From positions 1 to 64,000 of the forward strand of contig NZ_PGTO01000007.1 of NCBI RefSeq assembly GCF_003284725.1: DNA of 64,000 nt, in the 5' to 3' direction. This document shows, piece by piece, positions 45,008 to 64,000 of this stretch. The position numbers and the translations under genes were made by a program. Position 1 is the first letter of the stretch, and every line of letters begins with the position of its first letter. Under the pieces are notes generated by a model. That model did no database searches and was not told the DNA's origin. It saw only the letters and a program-made list of their open reading frames with translations. The DNA comes from Paramagnetospirillum kuznetsovii (GTDB taxonomy: Bacteria > Pseudomonadota > Alphaproteobacteria > Rhodospirillales > Magnetospirillaceae).

Positions 45008-45097
45008 GACAATGCCAGCGTCCTTATTTCCGAGCCACCCAGGGCTGCCGCAGTGTAGCACCGTGCGGCAGATGAAAAATCCATCTTTAAATTGCGG

Positions 45098-46825: not shown

Positions 46826-47775
46826 CCCGGTTCTCCTGCTTTTTCACACTGGGTCAATCGATCAACGACGCCATCGACATCGGTTCGCGCTGTCCAGCCC
46901 AGACGATCCTGCGTTGCGCTAATGTCAGCGTAACTTCGGCGGACGATATTGGTCGGCGGCGCATCGTTCCGGTAATCAACATGGTCACGCCAATCAAGCC
47001 CCAAGACCGCGAATGCGCGCTCGACCAGATAGGCGAGTGGAGCGCTACGGCCGGTGGCGATGATAAAATCCTCGGCCTGCTCACGCCGAAGCATCAGATG
47101 CATGGCTTCAACAAAATCGGGAGCCCATCCCCAATCTCGGATCGGGCTTATGTCTCCGAGGCTTAGGCGCTCGTCACTTCCCCGGGCAATACGCGACGCG
47201 CTTGAAATAATTTTGCGCGTTACAAAGTCCGCCCCCCGCAAAGGTGATTCGTGACTGAACAAAATGCCGGTCGAGACATGCATGTCAAAGGCTTGGCGAT
47301 AGGTTCGCACCTGCCAGAAGGTGAATGCTTTCGCCGTGGCATAGGGACTGCGCGGATAAAACGGTGTGTCGCAATTGGCCGGCATCTGCGTGTCACCGAA
47401 GCACTCCGACGATCCGGCGAAAAAACAACGGATGCCTCGATTGGCGCGCAAAGCCTCCAAGATCGCCGAGGTCGCACCCGCATTGGCCGCGAAGGCGCCG
47501 GCGGGGTCTGCAAAGGAGCGAGCCACGGAGGTCAATCCCGACAAGGCATAGACTTCGTCCGGGCGTACCCGCTCCAACAATTGGGTGACGGCCATGGTAT
47601 CAGTAGGGTCGAGGCGAACCATCTCAACTTGGTCGCTCAGTCCCAATCTATCCAAATTGAGGAACGGCCTATCGTTGCGGGAGCTTCCCGTCACGTGGTA
47701 ACCCAGACCCAGAAGATGTCGCGCCAGATAAGATCCGTCTTGCCCGGAAATCCCAATAATCAATGCCTTAAGCAT
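46822..47775 (-). CDS. GDP-mannose 4,6-dehydratase-like SDR epimerase/dehydratase
   Basis: A 317-residue extended SDR. The NAD(P) loop is GISGQDGSYLARHLL, and the catalytic triad is represented by SSECFGD and YPRSPYATAKAF (Tyr and Lys in YxxxK). Blocks such as HESPLRGADFVTRKI and GDISPIRDWGWAPDFVEAM are shared with true Gmd across the divergent intergenic space, so it is a Gmd paralogue. The Ser-Glu-Cys-Phe in place of Ser-Glu-Leu-Tyr suggests changed chemistry or substrate. ATG 47775 (MLKALIIGISGQDG) is the start. Confidence 0.9.
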   Translation of the reverse strand: MLKALIIGISGQDGSYLARHLLGLGYHVTGSSRNDRPFLNLDRLGLSDQVEMVRLDPTDTMAVTQLLERVRPDEVYALSGLTSVARSFADPAGAFAANAGATSAILEALRANRGIRCFFAGSSECFGDTQMPANCDTPFYPRSPYATAKAFTFWQVRTYRQAFDMHVSTGILFSHESPLRGADFVTRKIISSASRIARGSDERLSLGDISPIRDWGWAPDFVEAMHLMLRREQAEDFIIATGRSAPLAYLVERAFAVLGLDWRDHVDYRNDAPPTNIVRRSYADISATQDRLGWTARTDVDGVVDRLTQCEKAGEPG

Positions 47776-47927
47776 GGACCCCGCCCATCGGACCAACGGC
47801 GCGCGACAATTCCGACCATGACCAGTATGGCGGCACCGACTTTCCCGCGATTTAGCATTTTTAACGTCGTTGCCACAACATGTTTCCCGTTCGGATGGAT
47901 CAGACGCACCCCGCAGATCAACAAGCC

Positions 47928-47956
47928 TTGACAGTCATTGGCCGGTAAACTACGAG
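47928..47956 (+). promoter_or_regulatory. Possible promoter of gmd
   Basis: -35 TTGACA (47928-47933, perfect), a 17-base spacer and a weak -10 TACGAG (47951-47956). gmd starts 36 bases further on. The 217-base region 47776-47992 separates two divergent operons and must also contain the promoter of the Gmd-like gene. Confidence 0.4.
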
Positions 47957-47992
47957 TGCCCCTTACGCAATGGCTTCGGGTAAATCCGCTGC

Positions 47993-49030
47993 ATGGCTCC
48001 GACAGCATTAATAACCGGCATCACCGGACAGGACGGCGCCTATTTGGCCGAGCTTCTGCTGTCCAAGGGCTACGTGGTCCACGGGGTCAAACGGCGTTCT
48101 TCTTCTTTCAACACTGGACGGATCGATCATCTCTATCGTGATCCCCACGATGGCGAAACGCGCCTGCGCATGCATTTCGGCGATCTCACCGACGCCACCA
48201 ACCTGATCCGGGTTGTTCAAGAAACTCAGCCAGACGAGATTTACAATCTTGCCGCCCAGAGCCACGTTCAGGTCAGCTTCGAGACGCCGGAATACACGGC
48301 CAATTCCGACGGGCTCGGCACGCTGCGCCTCCTGGAAGCGATTCGCATTCTCGGAATGACTGACCGCGTGCGTTTCTACCAGGCATCGACCTCGGAGCTC
48401 TACGGCAAGGTCGCAGAAACGCCGCAGCGAGAAACCACGCCGTTCTACCCGCGTTCACCCTATGGCGCCGCCAAACTGTATGCCTATTGGATCACGGTGA
48501 ATTATCGCGAGGCCTATGGCTTGCACGCCTCTAACGGCATCTTGTTCAATCATGAAAGCCCGATTCGGGGCGAGACTTTCGTGACGCGGAAGATTACCCG
48601 CGCGGTCGCCGCCATTCATACCGGCCGGCAAGACACGTTATATCTCGGCAATCTTGACGCGGTGCGCGACTGGGGTCATGCCAAGGATTATGTGGAGGGC
48701 ATGTGGCGCATGCTCCAACAGCCAGAACCTGACGACTATGTCCTTGCCACCGGCGAGGGCCATAGCGTGCGTGAATTCGTCGAGCGGGCTTTCGCCTGTG
48801 TGGGGCGAACGATCACGTGGAAAGGGACCGGCATTGATGAGGTTGGTATCGATACTCGATCCGGGGACGCTATCGTCCGCATTGACCCCCGGTATTTCCG
48901 GCCGACCGAGGTGGAGCTTCTGATCGGCGACGCATCAAAGGCGAAGCGTAACCTTGGCTGGTCCGCAACCACCACATTCGCCGCCTTAATCGAAGAGATG
49001 ATGGCGGCAGATATCAAGGCAATTGGCTAG
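47993..49030 (+). CDS. gmd: GDP-mannose 4,6-dehydratase
   Basis: A 345-residue enzyme that converts GDP-D-mannose to GDP-4-keto-6-deoxy-D-mannose, precursor of GDP-fucose, GDP-rhamnose, GDP-perosamine and similar sugars. Diagnostic stretches: [74 protein letters not shown] (Tyr, Lys) and [16 protein letters not shown]. No reductase, epimerase or aminotransferase completing one of these paths is certain nearby, apart from the Gmd-like paralogue. Confidence 0.96.
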
Positions 49031-50449: not shown

Positions 50450-51645
50450 AGGTCGCCAGTTCGCTTGCCCTTACAGACTTCCCTGTAGATTGAGGCCAGT
50501 CGGCGCGTCAACTCATCATTGTCATGCAGCGCTCGGATGGCCGCCTCGGCCATTCGACGGAAGGCTTCCAACTGCCCTGGCTGGAGTAATAGCGCTTCGA
50601 TCATTGTTTCCAACTCGTCGAGTGACGAGAAAATCAATCCGGGAACAGGATAGGCCTGATCACGCAAATCCGGCCTGATATGGGTGATAGTGGGAACGCC
50701 ACAGCAGAGGGCTTCGATTTGGGCATTGGCGTAAAACCCCATCTTCATCTTTCCGATGGACAGGTCGGCATCCACCAATTCCTGCAGCACTTCGGAATAG
50801 GAAGCCCCCTTAATATGTCGAATCTCGATGGCATGGCCCTTGATGCGCAGTGCCTCCACCGCATCAGCGATCATGCGAGTTCCTTCGATCCCGGGATGGT
50901 TCGTGACATGAACGATTCGCAGGCAGCCATTCGTCGGCCATGTATCACGACGGCGTTTCGGGATGATGTCAGCAGGTGGTGAGAAAAAGGGAAAATGAAT
51001 TGCCTCAGGGACAAAGTCCAGCAAATCCGGTGTCGTCACCATTTCGAGATCAGCGTATTTCCGGCTGAGCCGTCGGCGCAACACGGACAGGGCGTTGCTG
51101 CAAAGATCACGACCATAGTCGCAGTCTTCGCAAATGTTCACGCTGGGATGCAATGCCATATTGCGCCGCCAGTCGCGGGCCTCGCATCCGGAGTAATAGA
51201 CGATGATCTTCCGACCCATGGATTTGAGAATAGGCCATTCCCATCCTGATCGGCTGATTCCCTGCATGAAATGGAATTGCACCAGTTCATAACGGCGCAT
51301 TACGCGCCAGAAAAACCAGAACTCGGTCAATGCCAAGGGCATCCATTTGCGCCAACGCTGGAAGTGGTAATCGCAGAGCGTCCAATCCCGACTGCCCCCC
51401 ACCGCCACATAATCCGCGGTGACGCCCTGGCGCCGGAGCAAAATCACGGTGTAATGGACGATGTGGAAGGGAAAACTCACATGCAGGACCGACCCGGCGT
51501 CGTATTTTTGACGCAGCGCCAAGGCAAGGAGTTTGTTCAACGGCCAAAGAATGACGGGAAGAGACATTTCCAGCGCCGCCCAAGCCGAGCGGGCTATCGA
51601 ACGCAATGCAGATCGCAAATGGTTGATAAGTTTTATCGCCACCAC
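50383..51645 (-). CDS. Glycosyltransferase-like protein (GT-B fold)
   Basis: A 420-residue protein. The C-terminal half has a GT4-like donor site: LRIVHVTNHPGIEGTRMIADAVEALRIKGHAIEI and SIGKMKMGFYANAQIEALCCGVPTITHIRPDLRD. The N-terminal half contains CEARDWRRNMALHPSVNICEDCDYGRDLC, with several cysteines that could bind a metal. The start is GTG at 51645, overlapping the upstream gene by 13 bases; ATG at codon 28 is possible. Its sugar and acceptor are unknown. The overlap of 67 bases with the convergent GT4 gene is unusual. Confidence 0.82.
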   Translation of the reverse strand: MVAIKLINHLRSALRSIARSAWAALEMSLPVILWPLNKLLALALRQKYDAGSVLHVSFPFHIVHYTVILLRRQGVTADYVAVGGSRDWTLCDYHFQRWRKWMPLALTEFWFFWRVMRRYELVQFHFMQGISRSGWEWPILKSMGRKIIVYYSGCEARDWRRNMALHPSVNICEDCDYGRDLCSNALSVLRRRLSRKYADLEMVTTPDLLDFVPEAIHFPFFSPPADIIPKRRRDTWPTNGCLRIVHVTNHPGIEGTRMIADAVEALRIKGHAIEIRHIKGASYSEVLQELVDADLSIGKMKMGFYANAQIEALCCGVPTITHIRPDLRDQAYPVPGLIFSSLDELETMIEALLLQPGQLEAFRRMAEAAIRALHDNDELTRRLASIYREVCKGKRTGDLQAWSGLRPAASSSTWPITPIN

Positions 51646-52679
51646 GTCTTAAGCATCGTCTTAAAGAAGAAAAGGCCGTAAAGAAAATTACCGCCCTTGC
51701 GACTAGTGCCATGTTCACGGCGGGCGATGTGGATGGGAACCTCTTGAATTCGGAGGCCTTTTTTTGCCGCCTCGATGATCACTTCAGATGCCTGGAACTG
51801 GTCTTCCCGCAAATTGAGCTTGGAGATGCTATTCATGCGGAACGCCTTGAAACCGCTTGAGCAATCGGTGATGTAGTGTCCCGACAGGACGCTAATGAGA
51901 TGAGACAGACTAAAGACACCCATGGACCGGGTCCAGCTAACGGCATCGGCACTTCCCTTAACCCGCGACCCAATGACGAGATCGGCCTGGCCGGTCAAGA
52001 TCGGCTCGACCAATCGGGCAATATCCGAAGGGCGATGCTGATTGTCGGCATCCATGGTCACCCCCACCTCGACTCCACATCTGGCGAGAACCTGATATCC
52101 AACTCTAAGGGCTGCGCCTTGTCCGCGTGGGACCGGGTTTCTTGCGGCGAGGACGCCAAGCTTGGTTGCCATCTCGGAGGTATCGTCCGTACTGCCATCG
52201 TCGATGACGAGGACACCCAGATCATGATCGCCAATCCGAGGCGGGATGTTTGGCAGGAGGATCTCAAGATTGCTGGCTTCATTTAGCGCGGGAATAATTA
52301 CCATGATCGGCTTTATTCGTTGCTGGATCATGTCGCCGTCGCCGAGCAAACGATCAGTCAAGCCGCTACAGATGATCCGATCCAGCAGATAGCGAAGTGA
52401 ATCGGTTCTAGATTTACTATAGAGCGCCAGTAAGGTTGCCAGGATGCTGGCGCAGATTGACAGCGCGAGAATTCGCCCAACACCGTACTCTCCCAGATTG
52501 AGAAGATTCGGCAGCCAATTGACCGAATCGGGCATGACCGAGACGATGACAAGGGCTAGGCCAACGAAGAAGACCAGCGTAAATACCGAACGGCTCCACC
52601 GAGATCCGCGATGATAATAAAAATTGGCAACGATGAGGACTGTGCCGAGCACCAAGCCAAAAAATCGGATCACACTCAT
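51633..52679 (-). CDS. DUF2304-GT2 fusion (membrane-anchored glycosyltransferase)
   Basis: A 348-residue protein in two parts. Residues 1-90 resemble DUF2304: three membrane helices, with the charged segment HRGSRWSRS and the PDSVNWLPNLLNLGEYG loop. From about 120 comes a GT2 domain: IMVIIPALNEASNLEILLPNIP, VIDDGSTDDTSE, MDADNQHRP (DxD) and SGFKAFRM. The two domains are often encoded as neighbours, so this is a natural fusion. It probably adds a sugar to polyprenyl phosphate. ATG 52679 is the start; the upstream part of the frame lacks coding character. Confidence 0.88.
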   Translation of the reverse strand: MSVIRFFGLVLGTVLIVANFYYHRGSRWSRSVFTLVFFVGLALVIVSVMPDSVNWLPNLLNLGEYGVGRILALSICASILATLLALYSKSRTDSLRYLLDRIICSGLTDRLLGDGDMIQQRIKPIMVIIPALNEASNLEILLPNIPPRIGDHDLGVLVIDDGSTDDTSEMATKLGVLAARNPVPRGQGAALRVGYQVLARCGVEVGVTMDADNQHRPSDIARLVEPILTGQADLVIGSRVKGSADAVSWTRSMGVFSLSHLISVLSGHYITDCSSGFKAFRMNSISKLNLREDQFQASEVIIEAAKKGLRIQEVPIHIARREHGTSRKGGNFLYGLFFFKTMLKTWWR

Positions 52680-52775
52680 TGAGTCGCCTCGATCACCCGA
52701 ACCATGTTTGCGATTTAGGACGCATTCTAGGCAAACGGCCATCACGAAGTCCATGATTGTATTGGGGTGAATATG

Positions 52776-52843: not shown

Positions 52844-53833
52844 ATGAAGTGGTTGATAACCGGCGGGGCAGGATTTTTGGGGAGAAACCTCTGCCGACGG
52901 CTGACGGATTCTGGTGGGCACACGATCAGGGTCGTTGACAACCTGTCGGTCGGTGGCGAAGAGCCCCTCAATCACGCGATGGGTGGGAAGGTGAGGATTT
53001 GCCCAAAGGACATGCCGGGGCCGATGATCGCAGGAGCCGCCCCTGAATTGATCGTGGCCGATATCGCCGAGGCGGAGGTGGCGGTCGCCGCTGCTGCCGG
53101 CGCAGACATCATCATTCATCTTGCCGCCAATACCGGTGTCCCACAGTCGGTCGCCCATCCCAGAGTGGACTGCATTACCAATGTGCTTGGAACCCTCAAC
53201 TACCTCGAGGCCTGTCGGGTGAGCAATGTGGGGCGATTTGTCTTCGCCTCGAGCGGCGCCCCCTTGGGGGAGTCCACACCGCCCATTCACGAAGAATCCG
53301 TCCCACATCCGATATCGCCATATGGAGCAAGTAAATTGGCGGGCGAGGGGTACTGTTCGGCATATTTCCACAGTTATGGTGTCGAGACGGTGGCGCTTCG
53401 GTTTGGGAATGTCTATGGGCCGGGTTCCGGTCATAAGACCAGCGTGGTCGCTAAATTTATTGGTCAGGCCCTGCGTGGAGAGGTGCTTGAGATCTATGGG
53501 GATGGCAACCAAACCCGCGATTTCATCCATGTTGACGATCTCGTGGATGGAATCCTTCGGGCAAGCAGCGTGCCTGGAATCGGAGGCGAGGTGTTTCAGA
53601 TCGCATCAGGGCGGGAAACCACGCTGCATGAACTGGTGGAACAATTGGCCGCCATCTTTGATGGCGCGGGATTGCCGCGCCCCGTGGTCAAAACATCCGA
53701 GCCGCGGCATGGGGATGTGACGCGCAATTTTTCCGACACCTCCAAGGCGAAACAGCGGCTTGACTGGACTCCTCGGGTTTCTTTGGCTGACGGTCTGCGA
53801 CAAACTCTGCGGAGTTTGGCCGACGTCGGGTGA
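52844..53833 (+). CDS. NAD-dependent nucleotide-sugar epimerase (UDP-glucose 4-epimerase-like)
   Basis: A 329-residue extended SDR. The NAD loop is ITGGAGFLGRNLCRRL; the Ser and YxxxK appear in FASSGAPLGE and SPYGASKLAGEGYCSAYF. RFGNVYGPGSGHKTSVVAKFI and GDGNQTRDFIHVDDLVDGI are typical of the UDP-Glc/GlcNAc 4-epimerase group in O-antigen clusters. The exact sugar is uncertain. It leads a two-gene unit with the GT-C-like protein. Confidence 0.9.
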   Translation: MKWLITGGAGFLGRNLCRRLTDSGGHTIRVVDNLSVGGEEPLNHAMGGKVRICPKDMPGPMIAGAAPELIVADIAEAEVAVAAAAGADIIIHLAANTGVPQSVAHPRVDCITNVLGTLNYLEACRVSNVGRFVFASSGAPLGESTPPIHEESVPHPISPYGASKLAGEGYCSAYFHSYGVETVALRFGNVYGPGSGHKTSVVAKFIGQALRGEVLEIYGDGNQTRDFIHVDDLVDGILRASSVPGIGGEVFQIASGRETTLHELVEQLAAIFDGAGLPRPVVKTSEPRHGDVTRNFSDTSKAKQRLDWTPRVSLADGLRQTLRSLADVG

Positions 53834-53919: not shown

Positions 53920-56043
53920 ATGCCGATGTATCTCCGCCGCATAAGAGATGTCGCTGCCGCCTTTTCCGCGCCGAGCGTGCAGTGCTGGATCCAGGTCGCC
54001 TGTCTTGCCTTGATTCTGGTCGGTGGGCTGGCCCATTTGGCTCCCGATGCCAATGAGTCCTATCTGCTTGCGGCTAAGTTCGAATGGTATCGGCATGATG
54101 TTGATGGGCGACGGTCGATCGAATTACCCTGGTGGGTCCGCAGCTTCAAGACCGGAGAGCGGCTTTTGGTGCCGGTGGCGATGCCACCGGTCGTCCCCAA
54201 GGGCCAGTGGTTCGTCGATATTCTGGCCAATGAATCGGGATGTGAGAATGTCGGCCACGTCATTGTCGGCGAGGCCGTCCAGTCCTTGCGGAAGACGCCA
54301 TACGCGGCATGGCAACGTATTGAATTACCGCCGCCTCTGCCCGGGCCAGTCACCCTGGAATTGTCCTATCGCCCGGCCTGTCCCGACGGCCACCTTAGCG
54401 TATGGGGAGTCTTCGACGACCCGCCCAGCGCGGATCGCGCCTTAATGGAAAGCGGCGGGCGGCGGATGTTATTGGATCGGTTGCTGCCGGTGCCGTTTCG
54501 CAGTACACCGGTGCCCTTCGTCGGGCTCGTGGAACTTGATTTCATCGAGCACATGGACGACGTTGCCGGAAAAGTTCCGGCCGTCCGCTATGGTGTGCGG
54601 GCACAGGCGATAGGCCGCCATGAGATCAGCCTTTGGGCGATGTGGTTCGGAGCAGCCGGCTCGCTGGCGCATTTAGCCGCTTTGGCTGTTGGCTTCTGGC
54701 TACGGGAGCCTGCATGGGCGACGGCTCTATTCGGTGCTTTCGCTACCACGGTTGCCGTTCGCCTTGATGCCGTCGCCCGGGTCCGCGTTGATATCCGCTG
54801 GCGGGCGGGTATCGACGGACTACGGGAGGTCATTAGCCAGGACTTGCCACGGCCATCGCAAATTCTCAATGGAGATGGTATTTTTGCCGATGCGGCACAG
54901 TACTTTGCCCATGCCGTATCCATTTACGCCAACCAGGAAAATCTACTTTTTGACACCCCATACGGGCTGTCAATGATGAGTGCAGCGCTTTTTCCCTTAA
55001 CCGGAATTTCCCCGATCCCCGTCGTCATGCTCAACATCCTGATCCAGGCTGCCACCGGCCTGCTGATCTATTACCTTTGCTTCCGCATCAGCGGCCGCAA
55101 ATGGCTGTCGTTCCTGCCCCTGGTTTATTGGATGGTATTCGACCGGCCATTCAAATACGCCCTTATGTATCTGACCGAGGCCCCGGCAACGGCCTTATTG
55201 TTGGCAGGGCTGGCGATCATTCTGGCACGCCCCGGAGCTTCCCCGTCGGTTCCGACACGGTACGCCGAGCTGCCCTTCTTGCTGCTGGCGGGGGCGTTGC
55301 TGTCAATGGCCACATATACCCGCGACATCGTGGTGGTGCTGATCCCGGCGTGTGTCGTAATTACGGCGATTGTGTATGGGTGGAAGCCTCGGTCCTTGGG
55401 GTTTGCCGGATTGGTCTTGATGGGGGTGGTGATCTGGTGGCTGCCGCTACCGATGATATTTCCAGGAAAGACTTTTTCTCCCATGGGCTTTACGCCTGTC
55501 GCCTTGACCAGAATTGGCCAGGCCAGCACCCTGATGGTTGGCGAGGGCGGCGAGTCCACGGTGACCGGGCTGATCGGTAATGCCATGGTATCTTTCCTAA
55601 GACCCCTGGCCGACGATCCGTTGGGGGGACTCTATAGGATGATTGCCGGATTTTGGTGGCCGAATTGGGGCGGCGATACGGAGGCGGCGTTCCATCACGC
55701 CTCGCCGTTCATTCTGCCGATTTATAATCTGCTTGAATGGCCGCTTCTGATCGGGGCGTTTTTACTCATGTGGCATCGGGATGGTCTTGCCCTGATCCGA
55801 ATCCGCTGGTGGTGTCTTGTCGCCTTGCTGGCTTACGTCACCACGTTTCACATCGTTCTATGGTCAGCGGTACAGCCCCGTAACAAGGAGATCTATTACC
55901 CCGAGGTCATCATCCTCGCCTTCTTGGGGCTGACGGCCGCTGTCGAGTGGGTCAGGGGGTGGGGGGCAGTTTGGCGGCAACGAATCGCATCGGAGACACC
56001 GCCACCGGCGGCAGGTGGCGCAACATCTCGAACAGACCGGTGA
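53920..56043 (+). CDS. Large multi-pass membrane protein (GT-C glycosyltransferase-like)
   Basis: A 707-residue protein. One N-terminal membrane helix (about 22-41) is followed by a periplasmic domain (about 45-240, beta-rich, with GLVELDFIEHMDDVAGKVPAVRYGVRA) and then about ten helices. The second loop has an acidic, GT-C-like region (LNGDGIFADAAQYFAHAVSIYANQENLLFDTPYGLSM). It could transfer a sugar from a polyprenyl carrier in the periplasm. The ATG at 53920 is given; ATG 53926, better spaced from GGGA, is also likely. Its 3' end overlaps the convergent methyltransferase gene by 92 bases. Confidence 0.75.
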   Translation: MPMYLRRIRDVAAAFSAPSVQCWIQVACLALILVGGLAHLAPDANESYLLAAKFEWYRHDVDGRRSIELPWWVRSFKTGERLLVPVAMPPVVPKGQWFVDILANESGCENVGHVIVGEAVQSLRKTPYAAWQRIELPPPLPGPVTLELSYRPACPDGHLSVWGVFDDPPSADRALMESGGRRMLLDRLLPVPFRSTPVPFVGLVELDFIEHMDDVAGKVPAVRYGVRAQAIGRHEISLWAMWFGAAGSLAHLAALAVGFWLREPAWATALFGAFATTVAVRLDAVARVRVDIRWRAGIDGLREVISQDLPRPSQILNGDGIFADAAQYFAHAVSIYANQENLLFDTPYGLSMMSAALFPLTGISPIPVVMLNILIQAATGLLIYYLCFRISGRKWLSFLPLVYWMVFDRPFKYALMYLTEAPATALLLAGLAIILARPGASPSVPTRYAELPFLLLAGALLSMATYTRDIVVVLIPACVVITAIVYGWKPRSLGFAGLVLMGVVIWWLPLPMIFPGKTFSPMGFTPVALTRIGQASTLMVGEGGESTVTGLIGNAMVSFLRPLADDPLGGLYRMIAGFWWPNWGGDTEAAFHHASPFILPIYNLLEWPLLIGAFLLMWHRDGLALIRIRWWCLVALLAYVTTFHIVLWSAVQPRNKEIYYPEVIILAFLGLTAAVEWVRGWGAVWRQRIASETPPPAAGGATSRTDR

Positions 56044-56818
56044 GGCGAAGCATCCGAGATATGATTTTCAGTAGCGCTCCGTGATGGCGGGCCCCGAAGG
56101 TGGGATCCTCTTGAATGCGGACCAATTGAGCGTGCAGCAGTCCGGGAGCAAATCCCACCTGCAGGCCATTGCGCTTGCACAGCGCTCGCACCTGACCGGC
56201 ATCTATGAAGTTCAGGCATTGCCAAAGTTGGCTGTCACGTATTCGGCGTGGCAGGACGATCTCTGTCAATTTTGGCCAGCCGGGTATGAGTGGGATAGAG
56301 AAATGCGGCTCGTAGGGGAAGTTATAATTGACGCACATATGGACCATGACCCCGCCCGGCTTCAAAACTCCGCACATTGCGGCGAAGGCTTCATCCAGTT
56401 GCGGGACATGCTCCAGGACATTGTGGGAAAAGATCACGTCGAATAGGCCGTGGATAGCAGAGTCGAGCTCTTCGGCTCCGATCACCAGCAGCGTCAGGTC
56501 GTCGTGTCCAAGCGTGCGGATCAGCTCCTCGTGATAGACAGCGTATTCGTCAAATCCTGATAAGGCTGGCTCGATTGCCGTAATGTCATATCCGTTCGCC
56601 TTGAGAAAAATGCTGGCTAAGCCAGGGCCGGCGCCTATCTCCAGTAGGCGTTTTCCCACGAGGTCAATATCCGCCAGCAGCTCCAGCGTTACCGGAACCT
56701 GGCGCAGCTTCGATTCCAGAAGGGCGGCTACCTGAGCAATCGGTCGGTTCAAGCGTCTGGCGAGCCGTTCTTGCAGGTCATGGGCGCGGACAGCGCGGGC
56801 TAATTCGTCGAGTGTCAT
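55952..56818 (-). CDS. Class I SAM-dependent methyltransferase
   Basis: A 288-residue methyltransferase. Motif I is LLEIGAGPGLASIFLKANGYDITAIEP, and FDVIFSHNVLEHVPQLDEAFAAMCGVLKPGGVMVH covers motifs II-III. A helical N-terminal segment precedes it. The ATG at 56818 is preceded by GGGAGGCGTCGC and preferred over ATG 56836. The substrate is unknown. It is the last gene of a long minus-strand series (62750 down to 55952). Its 3' end lies inside the convergent membrane protein gene. Confidence 0.88.
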   Translation of the reverse strand: MTLDELARAVRAHDLQERLARRLNRPIAQVAALLESKLRQVPVTLELLADIDLVGKRLLEIGAGPGLASIFLKANGYDITAIEPALSGFDEYAVYHEELIRTLGHDDLTLLVIGAEELDSAIHGLFDVIFSHNVLEHVPQLDEAFAAMCGVLKPGGVMVHMCVNYNFPYEPHFSIPLIPGWPKLTEIVLPRRIRDSQLWQCLNFIDAGQVRALCKRNGLQVGFAPGLLHAQLVRIQEDPTFGARHHGALLKIISRMLRLTGLFEMLRHLPPVAVSPMRFVAAKLPPTP

Positions 56819-56857
56819 GCGACGCCTCCCGGACATGTCCTGCCGTCCGGTTCGCGC

Positions 56858-57553
56858 TTATCTGCCGGCATTGTCGCATCCGGTAGCTATGTAGGTGTGG
56901 CGAGACCTCATGGGGGTGAAGTTGCCGGCCGCCCGCATGGCATCAAGTCCATGACGGGTCAACAGATCGAGCATCTCCTCCGTCGAGTAGCGGTGAAATT
57001 TGAGATCGCCGCCGAAGCCGCGCACCAGACGGCGCATAATATTCGCCAGAGCGCGGAGGAAGTAGCCATAACGCCAGGCGTCGGACAGACGTTCAATGGC
57101 ATCCCTGAACCCCGAGGAGTGATCGGGCACATCCACGACCAATAGCCGTCCGCCCCGGGCCAAGCGTTGCCGCAGCAGCGTCAGAAGGCGGTACAACTCA
57201 TTGTCGTCTAGGTATTGGATGACGGCGCAGACCAAGATGGTATCGATTGTGACGCCGTCCCGGTCCCTAAGAAAGTCTTCGTCCACCACCTGGACATTGG
57301 GGGTTCGGGCGGCGCATTGCTCCGCCTTGGCGCGGTAGGCTGGGGACCGATCATAGAGAAAAACCTTAACCCCCGCCTCGACCAGCAGCGGCGCCAGATC
57401 GGAATCGCCACATCCGTAATCGAGCAGGGAAGATCCTGGTAAAACCCCGCCCTCTCCAATCAGGCAATCGCGCAAATACTCGACCCGCTCCCTTCGCATG
57501 AAAGGATTGGAGAAGTATTCCGGGGGCTGTGCCCAGAAAGTCTCCCAGTCCAT
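56858..57553 (-). CDS. Class I SAM-dependent methyltransferase
   Basis: A 231-residue methyltransferase with motif I LLDYGCGDSDLAPLLVEAGVKVFLYDRSP and the post-motifs IDTILVCAVIQYLDDNELYRLLTLLRQRLARGGRLLVVDVPD. The N-terminus MDWETFWAQPPEYFSNPFMRRERVEYLRD may bind the acceptor. The ATG at 57553 follows AGAGGT. It lies between the SQD1-like gene and another methyltransferase gene, both in the same direction. Confidence 0.87.
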   Translation of the reverse strand: MDWETFWAQPPEYFSNPFMRRERVEYLRDCLIGEGGVLPGSSLLDYGCGDSDLAPLLVEAGVKVFLYDRSPAYRAKAEQCAARTPNVQVVDEDFLRDRDGVTIDTILVCAVIQYLDDNELYRLLTLLRQRLARGGRLLVVDVPDHSSGFRDAIERLSDAWRYGYFLRALANIMRRLVRGFGGDLKFHRYSTEEMLDLLTRHGLDAMRAAGNFTPMRSRHTYIATGCDNAGR

Positions 57554-57643
57554 ATACTAACCTCTGATCAAAATACGCAGCCGGCCAGCGGCAACTAGCG
57601 GGAAGGGTAGTCGGTGCCACTATCTTCTGCAAGCATTCAGGAA

Positions 57644-58792
57644 TCAGGACCAGCGGACCCGGGGCATGATGCGGGCAGGAACGATGCGATCACGATAAGG
57701 CAGGATTTTCTCGAACATAGCCGCCACGACGTCATCGGTCAGCAGATGGGATCTTAGGCCGAGTTCTTTCAAGCCGCTGTGGCAGGGATTGTAGTAATGC
57801 TCCTCGGCTTCCTTGCGGGGATTGGCGATAGGGCGAATCTCCACCTTCAGACCCAAATCGTTCCCGACCCGATGGACGCGATCCGCCAGATCGTTGACCG
57901 AGAACTGCTCGGTGAATTGGTTGAATACCCGCAGTGTCCCCTTGGCCGCCGGTTTGATCATGGCTAGCTCGATACACTGCAAAGTGTCGCGGATGTTGAG
58001 ATAGCCTCGGACCTGGCCGCCTTTCCCGTATACCGTCAGCGGAACTCCCGCCACTGCCTGGACCAGAAACCGGTTTAGCACGGTGCCGAAGATGTCATCG
58101 TAGTGAAAATTCGGCAGCAAACGCTCGTCTGCTTCGGTCTCATCCGTGGCCAGGCCATAGACCGGCCCCTGCATCAGGTCGGTGACCCGCAGTCCGTGAA
58201 GACGGACATAGAACCACAGCAAGTCGGTGTCGAGGATCTTGGTGGTATGGTAAAGGCTGCCGGCTTGGCGCGGAAACAGGAATTTATCGCGACGGCCCTT
58301 GTGCTCAATGTCGATCCAGCCTTCCTCAATATCGATGTTAGGAGTGCCGTACTCGCCCATTGTGCCAAGCTTGATGATATGGCAGCCCGGAGCATGCTTT
58401 AGCACAGCCCAGATCACATTGAAGGTAACCCCGAGGTTGTTGAGCAGGGTTTCGCGCGCCTCGCCGAATCCCCGCATGGAATAAGGCCCGGAGGGTTGCT
58501 CGGCGAAATGGACAACTGCTTCGGGGTTGAAGTCCGAGAAAACGCCGCTGAGGAAGTCCATATCAGCGCAATCGCCGATTGCCGTGGCGATCGCATGGCC
58601 ACTGGCCGCACGGTAAATAGCCGCCCGCTCCGGCAGGCGCGGATTGTCCATCAGCGCATCCGATTCGGTCTCGTGCGCGATTCTCCGCCTCATGTAGTTG
58701 TCGATCGCCAGAACCTCGTGACCCTTGGCGGCAAGCGCCATGGACGTAGGCCAGCCGAGATAGCCGTCACCGCCTAAAATCAACACCCGCAT
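57644..58792 (-). CDS. UDP-sulfoquinovose synthase-like SDR enzyme (SQD1 family)
   Basis: A 382-residue extended SDR highly similar over its length to plant SQD1/bacterial SqdB, which make UDP-sulfoquinovose from UDP-glucose and sulfite. NAD loop ILGGDGYLGW (5-14), KLGTMGEYGTPNIDIEEGWI (141-160) with Thr144, Tyr181 and Lys185 in SLYHTTK, FNQFTEQFSVNDLA and EAEEHYYN are all shared. The QRSAPYSM of SQD1 reads QPSGPYSM here (99-106), so an Arg near the sulfite/substrate site is lost and the product may differ. TTGGAG precedes the ATG. The sqdX/sqdC lipid genes are not seen. Confidence 0.85.
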   Translation of the reverse strand: MRVLILGGDGYLGWPTSMALAAKGHEVLAIDNYMRRRIAHETESDALMDNPRLPERAAIYRAASGHAIATAIGDCADMDFLSGVFSDFNPEAVVHFAEQPSGPYSMRGFGEARETLLNNLGVTFNVIWAVLKHAPGCHIIKLGTMGEYGTPNIDIEEGWIDIEHKGRRDKFLFPRQAGSLYHTTKILDTDLLWFYVRLHGLRVTDLMQGPVYGLATDETEADERLLPNFHYDDIFGTVLNRFLVQAVAGVPLTVYGKGGQVRGYLNIRDTLQCIELAMIKPAAKGTLRVFNQFTEQFSVNDLADRVHRVGNDLGLKVEIRPIANPRKEAEEHYYNPCHSGLKELGLRSHLLTDDVVAAMFEKILPYRDRIVPARIMPRVRWS

Positions 58793-58809
58793 GGACGCTC
58801 CAAGCAGCA

Positions 58810-60234
58810 TTATTGGGAGGAAATTGTCACTCCAGTCCGGCCGAGGCCAAAACGTGAGAAGAATTTGAGGTATATCCCTTTCCGGGATGTCCAGCAAAAC
58901 TTTATGAAGTCGGCATAGCGGTGATTGGCGATAAACAGTTTCAGATAAGTTTGCACCCGTAGGAATTCGAGACGTTGGTGACTGATGCCATCATGCTTCA
59001 GTACGGATCCGAAGTACTTGTCGTATTTCTTGAAATCCGCATCCATCAGGTCGAGACCTTCACGATGGCCGGCAGCTAAATCATAGACCTCGGTACCAGG
59101 CCACGGCACCATCACACCGATATTCAACTCATCGGGGTTGATCTTGACGATGGTTTCCATGGTGTCGAGGATTTCGGCCTCGGTTTCACCGATATGGCCG
59201 TAGACGATAAAGGCATTGGTCTGAAGTTTGGCACGACGGGCGCCCCGGAAAGCATCCAAGATCATGTCCCGCGACGTCTTCTTGTTGGCGCGCTCCAGAA
59301 CCTTGTCGACAGTGCTTTCGACACCGAAGGACACCAGATAGCACCCCGCGGCCTTCATCAGGAGCAGAAGATCGTCATCGACCGCATTGACGCGTGTGGT
59401 GCAGGCCCAACGAGCCTTGGCGGCAATTCCCTCGTCGATCATGCGCCGCAGGACCGCCTCGGTGTGCTTGCGATTTATGGCGAAAGTGGCGTCAATCAGC
59501 CAGAAATCGCTGCATTTCTGGTCGAACACTACATATTTGAGTTCAGCGATAATGGCGTCGATGCTGCGGGTGGAAAAGTTAAAATTTGTAGCATTGAAAC
59601 AATACGAGCAGCGGAATGGGCAGCCGATGGCGGTGAACAACATATATGTTTTGGCCGGCCCCATCTCGGCAAATCGCGAGGGCCCTACCTCCGACCAGCG
59701 GCGATTGTCGCGGGGGCGCTCCGGCGTGCGAATGGGCATGCCTTCATTTCGGTAGGCAATCCCCTTGATGTCGGCGAGCGACGGGAAATTGCCGCCGCGG
59801 GTATAGTAATCATGGAGCTCCACGACGGTCTGAATGCCCTCGAACCGTGCCACGACGTCGATTTCGGCACAGTCGTTGAGTGTACGTTCCGGCATGGCGC
59901 TGGAATGGGCGCCGCCTATCACGATGGGAACACCGGGAAACCGCGTCCGAATCGCCCGAATGGTGGTCATGTCGTTTTCAATCAGAGTGGTGGCTGAATT
60001 GCTTACCCCGATATAGGCGATACTCTTTCCTGCGCTTTTTTCCGCGATCAGGGCCAAGGTATCGTTCAGGGAAAACGCATTCAGTTGGGCGTCTATGACC
60101 GCATAATCCAGCCCGTGCTGGTGGAGCACCGCAGCCAGCAAGCCAATGGCGGGGTTGGGGTAGGGGGCCGACGAGTAGTTGAAATGATAGCTGGTTTCGT
60201 TGTCAAGAAACGGCGGGTTGAGCAGAATTATCAT
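58810..60234 (-). CDS. B12-binding radical SAM protein 2
   Basis: A 474-residue protein. A cobalamin-binding-type N-terminal domain (1-150: LLNPPFLDNE, SSAPYPNPAIGLLAAVL, IVIGGAHSSAMP) is followed by the radical SAM motif CPFRCSYC (Cys205, Cys209, Cys212) and ACTTRVNAVDDDLLLLMKAAGCYLVSFGVES. VMVPWPGTEVYDLA lies in the C-terminal part, which resembles HpnJ-like carbon-modifying enzymes. It overlaps the upstream radical SAM gene by 4 bases and is its paralogue. The substrate is unknown. Confidence 0.9.
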   Translation of the reverse strand: MIILLNPPFLDNETSYHFNYSSAPYPNPAIGLLAAVLHQHGLDYAVIDAQLNAFSLNDTLALIAEKSAGKSIAYIGVSNSATTLIENDMTTIRAIRTRFPGVPIVIGGAHSSAMPERTLNDCAEIDVVARFEGIQTVVELHDYYTRGGNFPSLADIKGIAYRNEGMPIRTPERPRDNRRWSEVGPSRFAEMGPAKTYMLFTAIGCPFRCSYCFNATNFNFSTRSIDAIIAELKYVVFDQKCSDFWLIDATFAINRKHTEAVLRRMIDEGIAAKARWACTTRVNAVDDDLLLLMKAAGCYLVSFGVESTVDKVLERANKKTSRDMILDAFRGARRAKLQTNAFIVYGHIGETEAEILDTMETIVKINPDELNIGVMVPWPGTEVYDLAAGHREGLDLMDADFKKYDKYFGSVLKHDGISHQRLEFLRVQTYLKLFIANHRYADFIKFCWTSRKGIYLKFFSRFGLGRTGVTISSQ

Positions 60235-61727
60235 TGTGAGATCTCGTTCAGCCCTTCGGCGCGGACGAAATCCTTAGCGGCGCTCACTGGGCGGCGCTGG
60301 CTGAGGAAGATGTCCATATCGGTTTGTTTCAAATCCTTGCGCTGGGCGCCAAAGATGGAGGCGGTGAGAAACCGTCGAATGATCGCAGCCTTGGAGAAAG
60401 CTTCTTTTGCGAGAGCCCCGAATTTAGCCCAGCGCAGATAGAACAGGATATAATTGAACAGCCTCAATCGGGGCAGGAAATTGCCGTCGAAGTTGTCGAA
60501 TTTTACGCAAGATCCAAAATGCTTGTCAAAATTGCGCCAATCGGCAGCGACCAGCTTATAGCCGCGCTCGCCACGCCTCGCGTATTCATACACCTGGGTT
60601 CCAGGCCAGGGCACCATGATGCCGATCACGATCAGGTCGAACCGCATGCGCAGCGACAGCTTAACCGTTTCCCACACGGACTTTTTCGTTTCGCCCGGAT
60701 GGCCGAATATGAAACCGCCGAGGGTGTAGATGCCCAGCTTGCGGCAAAGGGCCAGCATCTTGTTGGCGCGATCAATATCAATGTTCTGCTTCGCGACAGC
60801 GGAGATTTCCGGATCGCCCGACTCGACGCCGAAAAAGATCGAGACGCAACCGGCCCGCTTCATGCGGGTTAGGAGTTCCTCGTCGGTAGTGCTGAACCGC
60901 GCAGTAGTTTTCCATGGCACTCGTTCGGCGATGTTGGCCGCTATCAATGCGTCGAGCACGGGATAGACCTTCTTCTTGTTCAATCCAAAGGTCGGATCGG
61001 AAAAGAAGATGTGATCCGGTCTGGTCAGGGACAAGATGGTTTCGATTTCCCGTGCCACGTTCTCGGGGCTCTTGTGGCGAACCTTGGTGCCCGTCAGCCG
61101 ATAGCAGAATTCGCAAGGAAATGGGCACCCGCGAGTAGTCTGCACATGGTACATCTCGCCAGGGGGGAACATTTCCCAGACGGGTGTGCCGATGTCGTCT
61201 AGGTCGTGGCACTCCAGCGCCTTGTCATACGGATTGACGACAGCCTTTCCCCCGGATGAGCGCCATGCAATGTTGGGGATGCTTGTAATGTCTTCCCCGG
61301 CCCTGAGGGTTTCGACGATCTTCACCATCACCTTCTCGCCCTCGGCGATCACGGCGATATCGAAATACGGGAATTCCTCCAGGGTCTTTGCCGGCATCAC
61401 GGTGGAATGAGGCCCACCGACCACCACCACGCAGTTGGGGAACTCCTGCTTGATCAGGCCGGCGAACTGGTTAGCGAAATAGATATCCGTGGTGAAAGCG
61501 CTCAGGCCAACAATGTCGGGGGCGCAGGCTCGCAGCCGCTCGAGCGACTGCTCGATGGTCAGATCTTCAAGTTTGGCGTCAAAAATATCGAAGGCTATAT
61601 TCGCCGCTCTCAAGGCGCCGCCGATGACGGCTATGGCCGGATTGGGAAAGGCGCCATACCACCGGTAGACCGTGTAATGATGTGTTTCACGGTCAAGCCA
61701 AGGGTATTCCATGAGCAGAACCTTCAT
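60231..61727 (-). CDS. B12-binding radical SAM protein 3
   Basis: A 498-residue protein with the same layout as its downstream neighbour: YGAFPNPAIAVIGGALR, a B12-type domain (DIVGLSAFTTDIYFANQFAG, VVVGGPHSTVMPAKTL), the cluster motif CPFPCEFC (Cys201, Cys205, Cys208), the FFGVESGDPEISAV strand and IMVPWPGTQVYEYA. The pair arose by tandem duplication and is co-translated (ATGA overlap at 60231-60234). Three bases separate it from the SPASM gene upstream. Confidence 0.9.
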   Translation of the reverse strand: MKVLLMEYPWLDRETHHYTVYRWYGAFPNPAIAVIGGALRAANIAFDIFDAKLEDLTIEQSLERLRACAPDIVGLSAFTTDIYFANQFAGLIKQEFPNCVVVVGGPHSTVMPAKTLEEFPYFDIAVIAEGEKVMVKIVETLRAGEDITSIPNIAWRSSGGKAVVNPYDKALECHDLDDIGTPVWEMFPPGEMYHVQTTRGCPFPCEFCYRLTGTKVRHKSPENVAREIETILSLTRPDHIFFSDPTFGLNKKKVYPVLDALIAANIAERVPWKTTARFSTTDEELLTRMKRAGCVSIFFGVESGDPEISAVAKQNIDIDRANKMLALCRKLGIYTLGGFIFGHPGETKKSVWETVKLSLRMRFDLIVIGIMVPWPGTQVYEYARRGERGYKLVAADWRNFDKHFGSCVKFDNFDGNFLPRLRLFNYILFYLRWAKFGALAKEAFSKAAIIRRFLTASIFGAQRKDLKQTDMDIFLSQRRPVSAAKDFVRAEGLNEISQ

Positions 61728-61730
61728 TCC

Positions 61731-62750
61731 CTACCCCTTCAATGGACACGCCGCGCAATGGGCGTTGGGATGGTCGATGCAGGATGATTGGTTGGTCACG
61801 ATGCGCCGGTTAAGGGCATAGTCCGCCCCGTGCCAGATAGATGCGAACCCTCCTGAAATATTTCCCATATGCTTGTCGCGGCGCCAGTCGTAATCGCAAC
61901 AGGGCACTGATTCGCCATCATACAAGATGACGGGCAAGGTCCAGAGCCACTTGCATTTGAACGGAAATCGGCCGGTCCTCGCGGGAGCTCGGTTCAGTGC
62001 CCCTAGTTTGTGGCCATCATGGGTCAAGCCTTCTCGATTGCGGGTGACGACGAAATTATCAACGCCGATTTCGCGGGCCAACCGCTCTGCCTCGACCAGT
62101 TGATGCCGATTGTGGTCGAAATCGATAAACTGCCAAGCGATGATCGGCGAGGCCGCCTCTCTTTGGCGCTTAGCGGCCACCAGCCGACGCAAGTTGTCGA
62201 GGACCAGGTCGATCTTGCCGCCAACTCGATAGGTTTCGTAGATCTCTTGTGTGATGCCGTCGAGCGAGATGGTCAAATAGGTTGGGCCTCTTTGAACAAT
62301 GTCCTCAATTTCGGCATCGGTGAACTTGAGGCTGAAATTACTGCTAACAATGGTGGCGATACGCTGTTCCCGGGCCAAGGCGCACATGTCAAGCAGCTCT
62401 TTGTTTAAGAACGGCTCGCCTTTGTGATAGAGGATCAAGGCCAGCAGGTGGCGGCCCATCTGATCGATGACGGTCTGGAAGGTTTCCAGCGTCATGTAGC
62501 GTTTGTTCCGGAACGCCTCTCCACGCGGATCCTCGCCATGAAGGCAGTAAGGGCACCGCAAATTGCACAAGTTGGCGGTTTCCAGTTTGGCAACCATGGG
62601 CATGGAACGGGGATGTTCACGGCCCAGAAGGTAGTCCACCGCCGCGACCGCACCATTCGCCAGGCGTGCCGGTGTGAGCGTGCCCATCAAAACGTCGCGG
62701 AAAATCCTGGCGCAGGAGCTGAATGTTCCTTCGTTGCGATAAACCCTCAC
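61731..62750 (-). CDS. SPASM-domain radical SAM protein
   Basis: A protein of about 340 residues. The cluster motif is CNLRCPYC in LETANLCNLRCPYCLHGE, followed by the AdoMet-binding ILYHKGEPFLNKELLDMC (GEP motif). C-terminal cysteines FKCKW, SVPCCDYDW and HCAAC fit a SPASM auxiliary iron-sulfur cluster. No B12 domain is present. Start unclear: GTG 62750 (8 bases after GCAGG) is given; TTG 62765 and ATG 62687 are alternatives. It opens the radical SAM series. Confidence 0.85.
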   Translation of the reverse strand: MRVYRNEGTFSSCARIFRDVLMGTLTPARLANGAVAAVDYLLGREHPRSMPMVAKLETANLCNLRCPYCLHGEDPRGEAFRNKRYMTLETFQTVIDQMGRHLLALILYHKGEPFLNKELLDMCALAREQRIATIVSSNFSLKFTDAEIEDIVQRGPTYLTISLDGITQEIYETYRVGGKIDLVLDNLRRLVAAKRQREAASPIIAWQFIDFDHNRHQLVEAERLAREIGVDNFVVTRNREGLTHDGHKLGALNRAPARTGRFPFKCKWLWTLPVILYDGESVPCCDYDWRRDKHMGNISGGFASIWHGADYALNRRIVTNQSSCIDHPNAHCAACPLKG

Positions 62751-62855
62751 AGGGATAGCCTGCAATCCATCACGAACCCTAACGCCTTATCCGTGGCCTC
62801 GCGCGCATCATTGGCACATCTGATAACCGAAAGAGAAGATATACCAAATATATTT

Positions 62856-64000
62856 TTATATCAACTGCTTCTGATTATTACCCGCAGCTGCCGCCCGACC
62901 GTCGAGGATACGGCGGTAAATTTCGACATAGCGGGCTTCGGTCACCGACGGTGCCCACAATTTTTTGGAAATTGCATAGGCTTGACGCCCCTGGGCCTCG
63001 CGGGTGGCATGGTCGTCCATCAGACACCGGATGGCGCGCCAATACGCATCTGGCGTATTCTCAACCAAGGTGACGATATCCTCTGTCAGTTCCGGGACCG
63101 GCCGTCCGATCCGGCGGTTGATGATGACCGGCAGCCCGGCCAGCAGTGCCTCGATCACCGACTTATTGAACTCCCAAGCCTCGGTGTGAACGACGAACAG
63201 GTCAAATTCAGCAAGCATGGCGCATAAAACGGCATTGGGCACCACCGGCTGGAAGTCGATGCGATCAACTATGTCTAATTCGACGGCCCTTGCTTTCAGC
63301 GACTGGTGCAGTGGGCCGTCACCAACCATGGTCAGCGTCACCTCGGGCAAATCGGCGACGGCACGCAGGATATTTTCAGCATTCTTCTCGTGGTACTGCC
63401 GTCCTACCGAAATGAGCCTGACCGGCGATCCCAGGGCATAATTATCCTTGTGGCGAAGAGTGGCGCCGTTCAGCACATTGTAACAAATCTCAAAATTGAA
63501 GCCGCCGAGGCGATCAAGATAAGGCAGGATCGAGCCATAGACCGGCACCACCAAATCAGCCTCAGCCAGACATCTCCTTTCCAGATCCTCCATTGCGACG
63601 TTTACCTGGACCTGCTCGGGATCGATGGAAATTCGGCGTCGGCATGGACTTTGGTCTAGGTTAGTGTGCAACGAGACCACATAGGGAATGCCAAGGGCCT
63701 GCTTGATCCGCCGGGCCGCAACGGTGTTGAAGTCGGTGCCGTGGCAGCGCACCACGGCGGGATTCAACCGTCGGGCCAGGGCGACAGCAGGTTCCGACCA
63801 AGCGTCGAACATACGCCATCGCTTGATTCCATTCGGCTCCAGGAGCGGCCTGTAATCCTCCGGAAGATTATGGATGGTCATGGCGGCGTCACCGACCATT
63901 GGCCGGACGGCATCCTCCTGGGGCCGGTCGGCGTTGGTCATCAGGATATGGACTTCGCCGAATAGATTGCCGGGATTGTAGTATCGCGGCTGCACTTCCC
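62856..64000 (-). CDS. Glycosyltransferase family 4 (5' end beyond the window)
   Basis: At least 381 residues of a GT-B enzyme. Donor-site blocks include LISVGRQYHEKNAENILRAVADLPEVTLTMVGDGPLHQSL, FQPVVPNAVLCAMLAEFDLFVVHTEAWEFNKSVIEALLAGLPVIIN (the NKSVIEALLAG pattern) and VRCHGTDFNTVAARRIKQALGIPYVVSLHTNLD. The frame is open to the window edge, and the first visible residues EVQPRYYNPGNLFGEVHIL match an internal family segment, so the start lies outside. It is 105 bases upstream of the SPASM gene on the same strand. Confidence 0.9.
   Translation of the reverse strand, partial: EVQPRYYNPGNLFGEVHILMTNADRPQEDAVRPMVGDAAMTIHNLPEDYRPLLEPNGIKRWRMFDAWSEPAVALARRLNPAVVRCHGTDFNTVAARRIKQALGIPYVVSLHTNLDQSPCRRRISIDPEQVQVNVAMEDLERRCLAEADLVVPVYGSILPYLDRLGGFNFEICYNVLNGATLRHKDNYALGSPVRLISVGRQYHEKNAENILRAVADLPEVTLTMVGDGPLHQSLKARAVELDIVDRIDFQPVVPNAVLCAMLAEFDLFVVHTEAWEFNKSVIEALLAGLPVIINRRIGRPVPELTEDIVTLVENTPDAYWRAIRCLMDDHATREAQGRQAYAISKKLWAPSVTEARYVEIYRRILDGRAAAAGNNQKQLI

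Follow-up and report, generated by a model that had tools for sequence, protein, structure and literature searches.

A conserved CapD-like and SQD1-like gene pair suggests a possible new route to the sulfonated sugars of bacterial surface polysaccharides

We analysed a 64,000-nucleotide stretch of Paramagnetospirillum kuznetsovii DNA (the window; positions 1–64000 of contig C67, in a genome of 4.4 Mb in 69 contigs), in which a gene for an SQD1-like extended short-chain dehydrogenase/reductase (SDR) lies in a tight run with radical S-adenosylmethionine (SAM) and methyltransferase genes. Homologues of this gene and a CapD-like SDR gene form a conserved pair in loci that resemble surface polysaccharide clusters, and this pair is better supported than the unit of SQD1-like, radical SAM and methyltransferase genes proposed in the initial annotation. 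Because the SQD1-like enzyme is conserved with a CapD-like dehydratase and not with the adjoining radical enzymes, our observations suggest that sulfonated sugars of bacterial surface polysaccharides may be made by a route not yet described. With a probability of about one half, the SQD1-like enzyme, which carries proline at the position of SQD1 Arg101, acts together with the CapD-like SDR and often an epimerase-like SDR in one pathway that yields a nucleotide sugar, sulfonated at C6, for a surface glycan, the radical SAM enzymes and methyltransferases serving as local tailoring enzymes.

The SQD1-like protein starts at an ATG (58790–58792; a longer TTG form of the open reading frame (ORF) begins at 58897), scores 68.9 bits against Pfam Epimerase, over the cut-off, and matches Arabidopsis SQD1 (1i24) over its full length (query residues 36–416, E 1.7e-123). 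In the alignment, the window protein keeps the glycine-rich NAD (nicotinamide adenine dinucleotide) motif as well as Thr145, Met146, Tyr182 and Lys186 of SQD1, with the catalytic positions Thr145, Tyr182 and Lys186 taken from PMC4388408. Of the 92 aligned rows, 88, among them the window protein, have proline at the position of SQD1 Arg101 (P-type) and four have arginine (Arg-type), as does SQD1; Arg101 is also present in four plasmid-borne SQD1-like homologues. A tree placed 86 P-type sequences on one side of a branch with a support of 97/91, next to plant SQD1 (midpoint root for drawing only; bootstrap not fully settled). The SQD1-like enzyme is a member of a distinct subfamily with proline in place of Arg101. 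Its score of 440.8 bits lies below the 575-bit cut-off of the NCBIfam model UDPsulfquin_syn (NF041015), which we dropped as a membership test: three Arg-type proteins (L081, L082 and L084; 335–353 bits) also fall short, so the cut-off is strict. An SQD1-like match at E ≤ 1e-60 was present in 17 plasmid records, all below 60% identity, and phage records contained none at E ≤ 1e-40. On one Rhodococcus plasmid (L277), genes annotated as sulfate transporter, glycosyltransferase and alkyl sulfatase-domain protein lie near an SQD1-like gene with Arg101.

To follow the gene neighbourhood, we retrieved the top 80 SQD1-like relatives among 576 confirmed candidates, with flanks of up to 10 kb, and added further loci found in related genomes. 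The P-type set comprised 85 loci, excluding the window and the four Arg-type loci L081–L084 (counts over 90 loci are the 85 plus these five); L130 and L134, which duplicate L076 and L074, were not counted as loci but are still among the 92 alignment rows. As control served 40 loci hand-picked from weak nucleotide-sugar SDR matches. With a mean of 15.5 kb, the P-type loci are shorter than the control loci (19.3 kb), a difference that works against the enrichments reported here. Genes were called by a simple script, and wrong-strand or overlong ORFs occur. A CapD-like homologue of at least 280 bits was present within 20 kb in 73 of the 85 P-type loci, within 3 kb in 71 and within 200 bp in 64; when only the 71 loci flanked by 1.2 kb or more in both directions are considered, the respective numbers were 66, 64 and 57. 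The control contained no such gene (0/40), even at a looser threshold of 150 bits only five (5/40, best 187 bits), and none of the four Arg-type loci had an adjacent CapD-like SDR. In 25 same-strand pairs, the CapD-like and SQD1-like genes overlap by 1–26 bases. The 73 CapD-linked loci span nine named phyla, with six loci unassigned. An apparent CapD–SQD1 fusion in L137 was rejected; it is an overlong ORF with the SQD1-like domain alone in that frame.

The two genes also co-occur at the level of whole genomes. Among 99 related genomes, CapD-like matches of at least 369 bits were found only in G000, G077, G013 and G008 (next best 212.1 bits), the same four genomes that have an SQD1-like match of at least 550 bits. 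The CapD-like match is missing in four more P-type genomes, whose SQD1-like matches score about 450–465 bits, and in the four Arg-type genomes. If the three genomes besides that of the window (G000) were a free draw from 98, such a perfect match would arise with a chance of about 7 in a million, a figure that kinship makes less extreme. The CapD-like protein itself scores 301.7 bits against Polysacc_synt_2 and has the DK acid–base pair, with SDK...MGTSK in both the window-genome protein and the consensus. Its best solved matches are 6bwc (named CapD, also Pen), followed by 2gn4, a UDP-GlcNAc (uridine diphosphate N-acetylglucosamine) C6 dehydratase. We did not file it as PseB because its 257.3 bits are below the NCBIfam PseB cut-off of 407.75. 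Within its conserved motif SSDKxxxxxxxMGTSK, methionine occupies the position of the catalytic tyrosine; a review lists methionine at this position for PglF/WbpM and tyrosine for Pen (PMC8987622).

A second SDR recurs at these loci. Homologues of the window's epimerase-like SDR (at least 190 bits) lie within 20 kb in 34 of the 85 P-type loci, compared to 1/40 in the control at a looser 150 bits. At E ≤ 1e-50, with up to 22 candidates scored per genome, the gene was found in five genomes including its own, each time on the contig of the SQD1-family gene and within 5 kb of it. The protein encoded at 52844 contains SSGAP...YGASK; since YGASK occurs without a DE or DK pair, its sequence would fit an epimerase better than a dehydratase. 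In the Magnetospirillum locus L074, the gene order is CapD-like, SQD1-like, SDR, glycosyltransferase family 2 (GT2), short ORF and B12-radical SAM, and the GT2 gene is a homologue (96 bits) of the GT2 gene at 51633..52754 in the window. In L295 (G020) and L296 (G050), the epimerase-like SDR also adjoins Arg101 SqdB-type genes, so that its partnership may extend more widely over the SQD1 family.

Genes of sulfur and glycan metabolism are enriched around the P-type genes. CysH-family genes were present in 19 of the 85 P-type loci, in 1/40 control loci (Fisher p 0.0036) and in none of the four Arg-type loci; all 19 lie on the strand of the SQD1-like gene and all 19 loci are CapD-linked, with several of them close kin in the tree. 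CysD belongs to the superfamily that the CysH model collects. Of five proteins compared with the NCBIfam models, two of four CysH-like ones passed the cut-off for 3'-phosphoadenosine 5'-phosphosulfate (PAPS) reductase and two did not, and the fifth was CysD. CysN-like genes occurred in 5/85 versus 0/40 loci and sulfotransferase-like genes in 10/85 versus 0/40, the CysN, sulfotransferase and flippase seeds being named by eye. Genes of glycosyltransferase family 4 (GT4) type were found in 40/85 P-type and 10/40 control loci and those of GT2 type in 29/85 and 5/40, with one or the other in 59 of the 85 P-type loci; flippase-like genes were seen in 20 of 90 loci. Both the surface-glycan setting and a sulfonated sugar as the likely product, as put forward in the initial annotation, are supported.

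In the window, the SQD1-like gene is one of six closely packed ORFs on the minus strand, whose positions, spacings and Pfam domains bear out the close array and the gene families described in the initial annotation (one SPASM, two B12-radical SAM, one SQD1-like and two methyltransferase genes). From MT1 onwards, the spacings are 21 bp, 90 bp, 17 bp, a 4-bp overlap between the two B12-radical SAM genes, and 3 bp between rSAM_A and the SPASM gene. All domain scores are over the Pfam cut-offs: Methyltransf_23 in both methyltransferases (61.0 and 39.8 bits), B12-binding in the two B12-radical SAM proteins (50.3 and 67.1 bits), Radical_SAM in these two and the SPASM protein (74.0, 76.8 and 52.0 bits), and SPASM in the latter (36.8 bits). 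Because long ORFs with strong domain matches are packed so tightly, the cluster is real and not due to chance. As a GT4 gene comes first (start at C67:64097, past the window end; end at 62856) and a divergent ORF begins beyond it at C67:64174, the same-strand run comprises seven genes. The features are as follows.

55952..56836, minus strand: MT1, class I SAM methyltransferase; its last 92 bp overlap a convergent ORF at 53920–56043
56858..57553, minus strand: MT2, class I SAM methyltransferase (ORF and Pfam)
57644..58792, minus strand: SQD1-like extended SDR, 382 amino acids, proline at the SQD1 Arg101 position
58810..60234, minus strand: rSAM_B, B12-binding radical SAM enzyme (ORF and Pfam)
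60231..61727, minus strand: rSAM_A, B12-binding radical SAM enzyme, best solved-structure sequence match 6fd2
61731..62765, minus strand: radical SAM/SPASM enzyme (ORF and Pfam)
62856..64000 in the window, on to C67:64097, minus strand: GT4 glycosyltransferase, first gene of the run
52844..53833, plus strand: epimerase-like SDR, recurrent partner of SQD1-family genes
51633..52754, minus strand: GT2 glycosyltransferase, DUF2304 match just under the cut-off
C67:78905–79969, outside the window: CapD-like SDR, partner gene

The seven genes of the run have a GC content at third codon positions (GC3) of 0.65–0.72, compared to 0.81–0.88 in three genes elsewhere in the window. Around the run lie glycosyltransferases, sugar-nucleotide SDRs, an ABC-2 membrane protein, an asparagine-synthase-type amidotransferase and an ATPase with a Wzt_C match below the cut-off, and this low-GC3 stretch reads as a polysaccharide island. 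At 46822–49030, two divergent SDR genes look like a pair of GDP-mannose (guanosine diphosphate mannose) dehydratase and GDP-sugar reductase (assigned by eye). Five ORFs on the contig resemble asparagine-synthase-type amidotransferases by their start sequence (C67:67976–69814, 71684–73561, 102000–103861, 110798–112723 and 115026–116939), the first of which alone was domain-checked.

According to the initial annotation, the SQD1-like gene would act in a single dedicated pathway with the radical SAM and methyltransferase genes, a sulfonated sugar being altered by radical chemistry; co-occurrence across genomes was proposed as a check. We ran this comparison and found that the linkage of SQD1-like and B12-radical SAM genes is not conserved. 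Although the genes share one tight run, B12-radical SAM genes within about 10 kb of the SQD1-like gene were no more frequent in P-type loci (3/85) than in the control (4/40) and absent from the four Arg-type loci, and we therefore rejected the two as a conserved unit. SPASM genes behaved alike (3/85 versus 3/40), with two of the four Arg-type SqdB loci carrying one (L081, 1616–2755; L082, 4963–6033). Of 99 related genomes, 91 have homologues of the B12-radical SAM type, but most of these genomes are without a close SQD1-like gene. In these 99 relatives neither rSAM_A nor rSAM_B has a close counterpart, the best-scoring other matches being 30–35% and 29–33% identical, respectively. With three or four candidates scored per genome, 15 of 398 genomes of a phylum sample, its own included, reached E ≤ 1e-45 for rSAM_A (best-scoring other 32%), and of 385 genomes in a class sample only its own reached E ≤ 1e-36 for rSAM_B; plasmid records held nine rSAM_A matches at E ≤ 1e-30, all below 60% identity. 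Both proteins have 6fd2, apramycin biosynthetic oxidoreductase 4, as best solved-structure match and stay far under every NCBIfam equivalog cut-off shown. In favour of a dedicated pathway, a partial B12-radical SAM gene lies 2 kb beyond the SQD1-like gene of L074, though it is nearer to the product of C67:90600–92198 (58 bits) than to rSAM_A (44 bits). Taken together, such a pathway is highly improbable. We infer instead that the radical SAM and methyltransferase genes encode local tailoring enzymes of the same glycan; that the radical SAM proteins would deoxygenate or C-methylate it is a fair guess, no more. Linkage to the SQD1-like genes was also rejected for homologues of MT2 (best 65 bits, L085) and of the window GT4 (best 62 bits, L105). 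A further B12-radical SAM gene of the window (43520–45061) has a homologue (327 bits) about 2.4 kb from the P-type SQD1-like gene in L157, and several B12/SPASM radical SAM genes stand together in islands of relatives (L203, 8321–15818, G012; L198, 3068–10469, G005; by motif and similarity).

From the adjacency, co-occurrence, residue change and genome setting described above, we infer a substrate, a reaction order and a product for the proposed pathway. A UDP-hexose or UDP-N-acetylhexosamine and sulfite would be the starting compounds; oxidation at C4 and loss of the 6-hydroxyl group would give a 4-keto-5,6-ene, to which sulfite would add at C6, followed by reduction at C4 and an optional C4 epimerisation, and the 6-sulfonated sugar would then enter a surface polysaccharide. 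The window genome has its three SDR genes (52844–53833, 57644–58792 and C67:78905–79969) scattered over about 27 kb of an island that also holds an ABC-2/Wzt-like exporter, and the GT4 at the head of the run is a candidate sulfosugar transferase. A more specific form of this pathway, in which the CapD-like and Pro101 SQD1-like proteins make up a two-protein synthase that converts UDP-GlcNAc to UDP-6-sulfo-N-acetylquinovosamine and the SDR leads on to the sulfofucosamine form (or UDP-glucose is converted to UDP-sulfofucose), is put forward tentatively and is rather unlikely to hold in full. Somewhat unlikely as well is that the SQD1-like enzyme needs no partner to form UDP-sulfoquinovose, in the manner of SQD1 and Agl3, with the CapD-like SDR making a separate UDP-GlcNAc-derived 6-deoxy sugar of the same polysaccharide. 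The retained catalytic positions, the full-length match to SQD1, the resemblance of the CapD-like protein to UDP-GlcNAc dehydratases and the existence of P-type loci without it all fit such a division of labour; however, genes for unrelated sugars would not be expected within 200 bp of each other in 64 of 85 loci over nine phyla, and Arg101 is lost. This loss lends itself to another reading, which we consider doubtful: the subfamily may no longer use sulfite and, with its CapD-like partner, make or rearrange a 5,6-ene or keto sugar, similar to Pen/Pal. In Agl3, according to PMC4388408, alanine at Arg101 (equated with the aligned residue through the SQD1 numbering, not the Agl3 sequence) abolishes activity, and UDP-glucose-5,6-ene is formed without sulfite; moreover, Pal (6bwl) weakly matches the SQD1-like protein (E 2.8e-4). 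The 19 CysH-family loci, all CapD-linked, speak against an enzyme that has given up sulfite.

Several observations weigh against one common pathway of the Pro101 SQD1-like and CapD-like proteins. Twelve of the 85 P-type loci have no CapD-like gene at 280 bits or more, five of them with sequence on both sides (L145, L162, L077, L078 and L079) and seven cut short on at least one side. L145 and L162 group, though weakly (89/77), with the window gene, and L077–L080 branch early in the tree; as these early P-type genes lack a CapD-like partner at the cut-off (the L080 locus being cut short), the tree suggests that the loss of Arg101 preceded the link to CapD. In the window genome itself, the CapD-like gene is about 20 kb away from the SQD1-like gene. 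CapD-like proteins might also supply a different sugar within the same repeat unit. Because the exchange of Arg101 for alanine inactivates Agl3, it may be that the proline enzymes do not make sulfosugars. No more than 19 of the 85 loci have CysH-family genes nearby, two of which (L104 and L124) have the CysD type alone, and the two family members of the window genome sit on another contig. The epimerase-like SDR, at E ≤ 1e-50, is present in five of 12 SQD1-family genomes; since two of these five are Arg-type and seven of the 12 lack it, it accompanies part of the whole SQD1 family, beyond the P-type. Finally, the 85 loci were chosen by similarity to the window protein and include several close kin, and the hand-picked control loci all come from the window's order.

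As far as we know, most described sulfonated sugars come from the sulfolipid of photosynthetic organisms and from a few N-glycans of archaea. With a gene pair that spans nine phyla, sometimes with sulfate-reduction genes, bacterial surface glycans would become a candidate source of sulfosugars in the environment, and a two-protein synthase, if true, would represent a pathway of wide distribution that serves sulfonated surface glycans, as well as the first candidate for a route to sugars of the sulfofucose type. Our analysis also corrects the search target, from the radical SAM genes to the dehydratase that usually adjoins the SQD1-like gene. A literature search limited mostly to openly available papers retrieved neither a pair of CapD and SQD1-like proteins nor a pathway with these radical SAM genes, and the introduction of a 2025 paper (PMC12421959) states that the biosynthesis of sulfofucose had yet to be assigned to any pathway.

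Compared with known systems, the enzyme shares full-length homology, the glycine-rich NAD motif, Thr145, Met146, Tyr182 and Lys186 with SQD1, SqdB and Agl3, but differs from them in having proline for Arg101 and in being usually encoded beside a CapD-like SDR (0/4 in Arg-type loci). The rSAM proteins resemble AprD4-type and other B12-domain radical SAM enzymes in their combination of B12-binding and radical SAM domains and in their best solved match, 6fd2, whereas they score far below the NCBIfam equivalog cut-offs shown. With sqdBDC-type sulfolipid operons, the loci have in common an SQD1-family gene and an epimerase-like SDR. In contrast, the genes of S. meliloti and Marinovum that we take for sqdB (annotated as epimerases only) have Arg101 and an adjacent glycosyltransferase-type gene. 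No sulfolipid synthase was identified here; the S. meliloti glycosyltransferase, the one probe used for sulfolipid synthesis, had no match in 12 genomes, the four Arg-type ones included, and was thus rejected as uninformative. The Pen/Pal UDP-GlcNAc dehydratase pair of Bacillus thuringiensis likewise joins a CapD-family SDR to a second SDR, and Pen (6bwc) is the best solved match of our partner protein. Unlike Pen, for which tyrosine is given in PMC8987622, the partner protein has methionine at the catalytic tyrosine position, and the second enzyme here is SQD1-like, with sulfate-reduction genes sometimes nearby.

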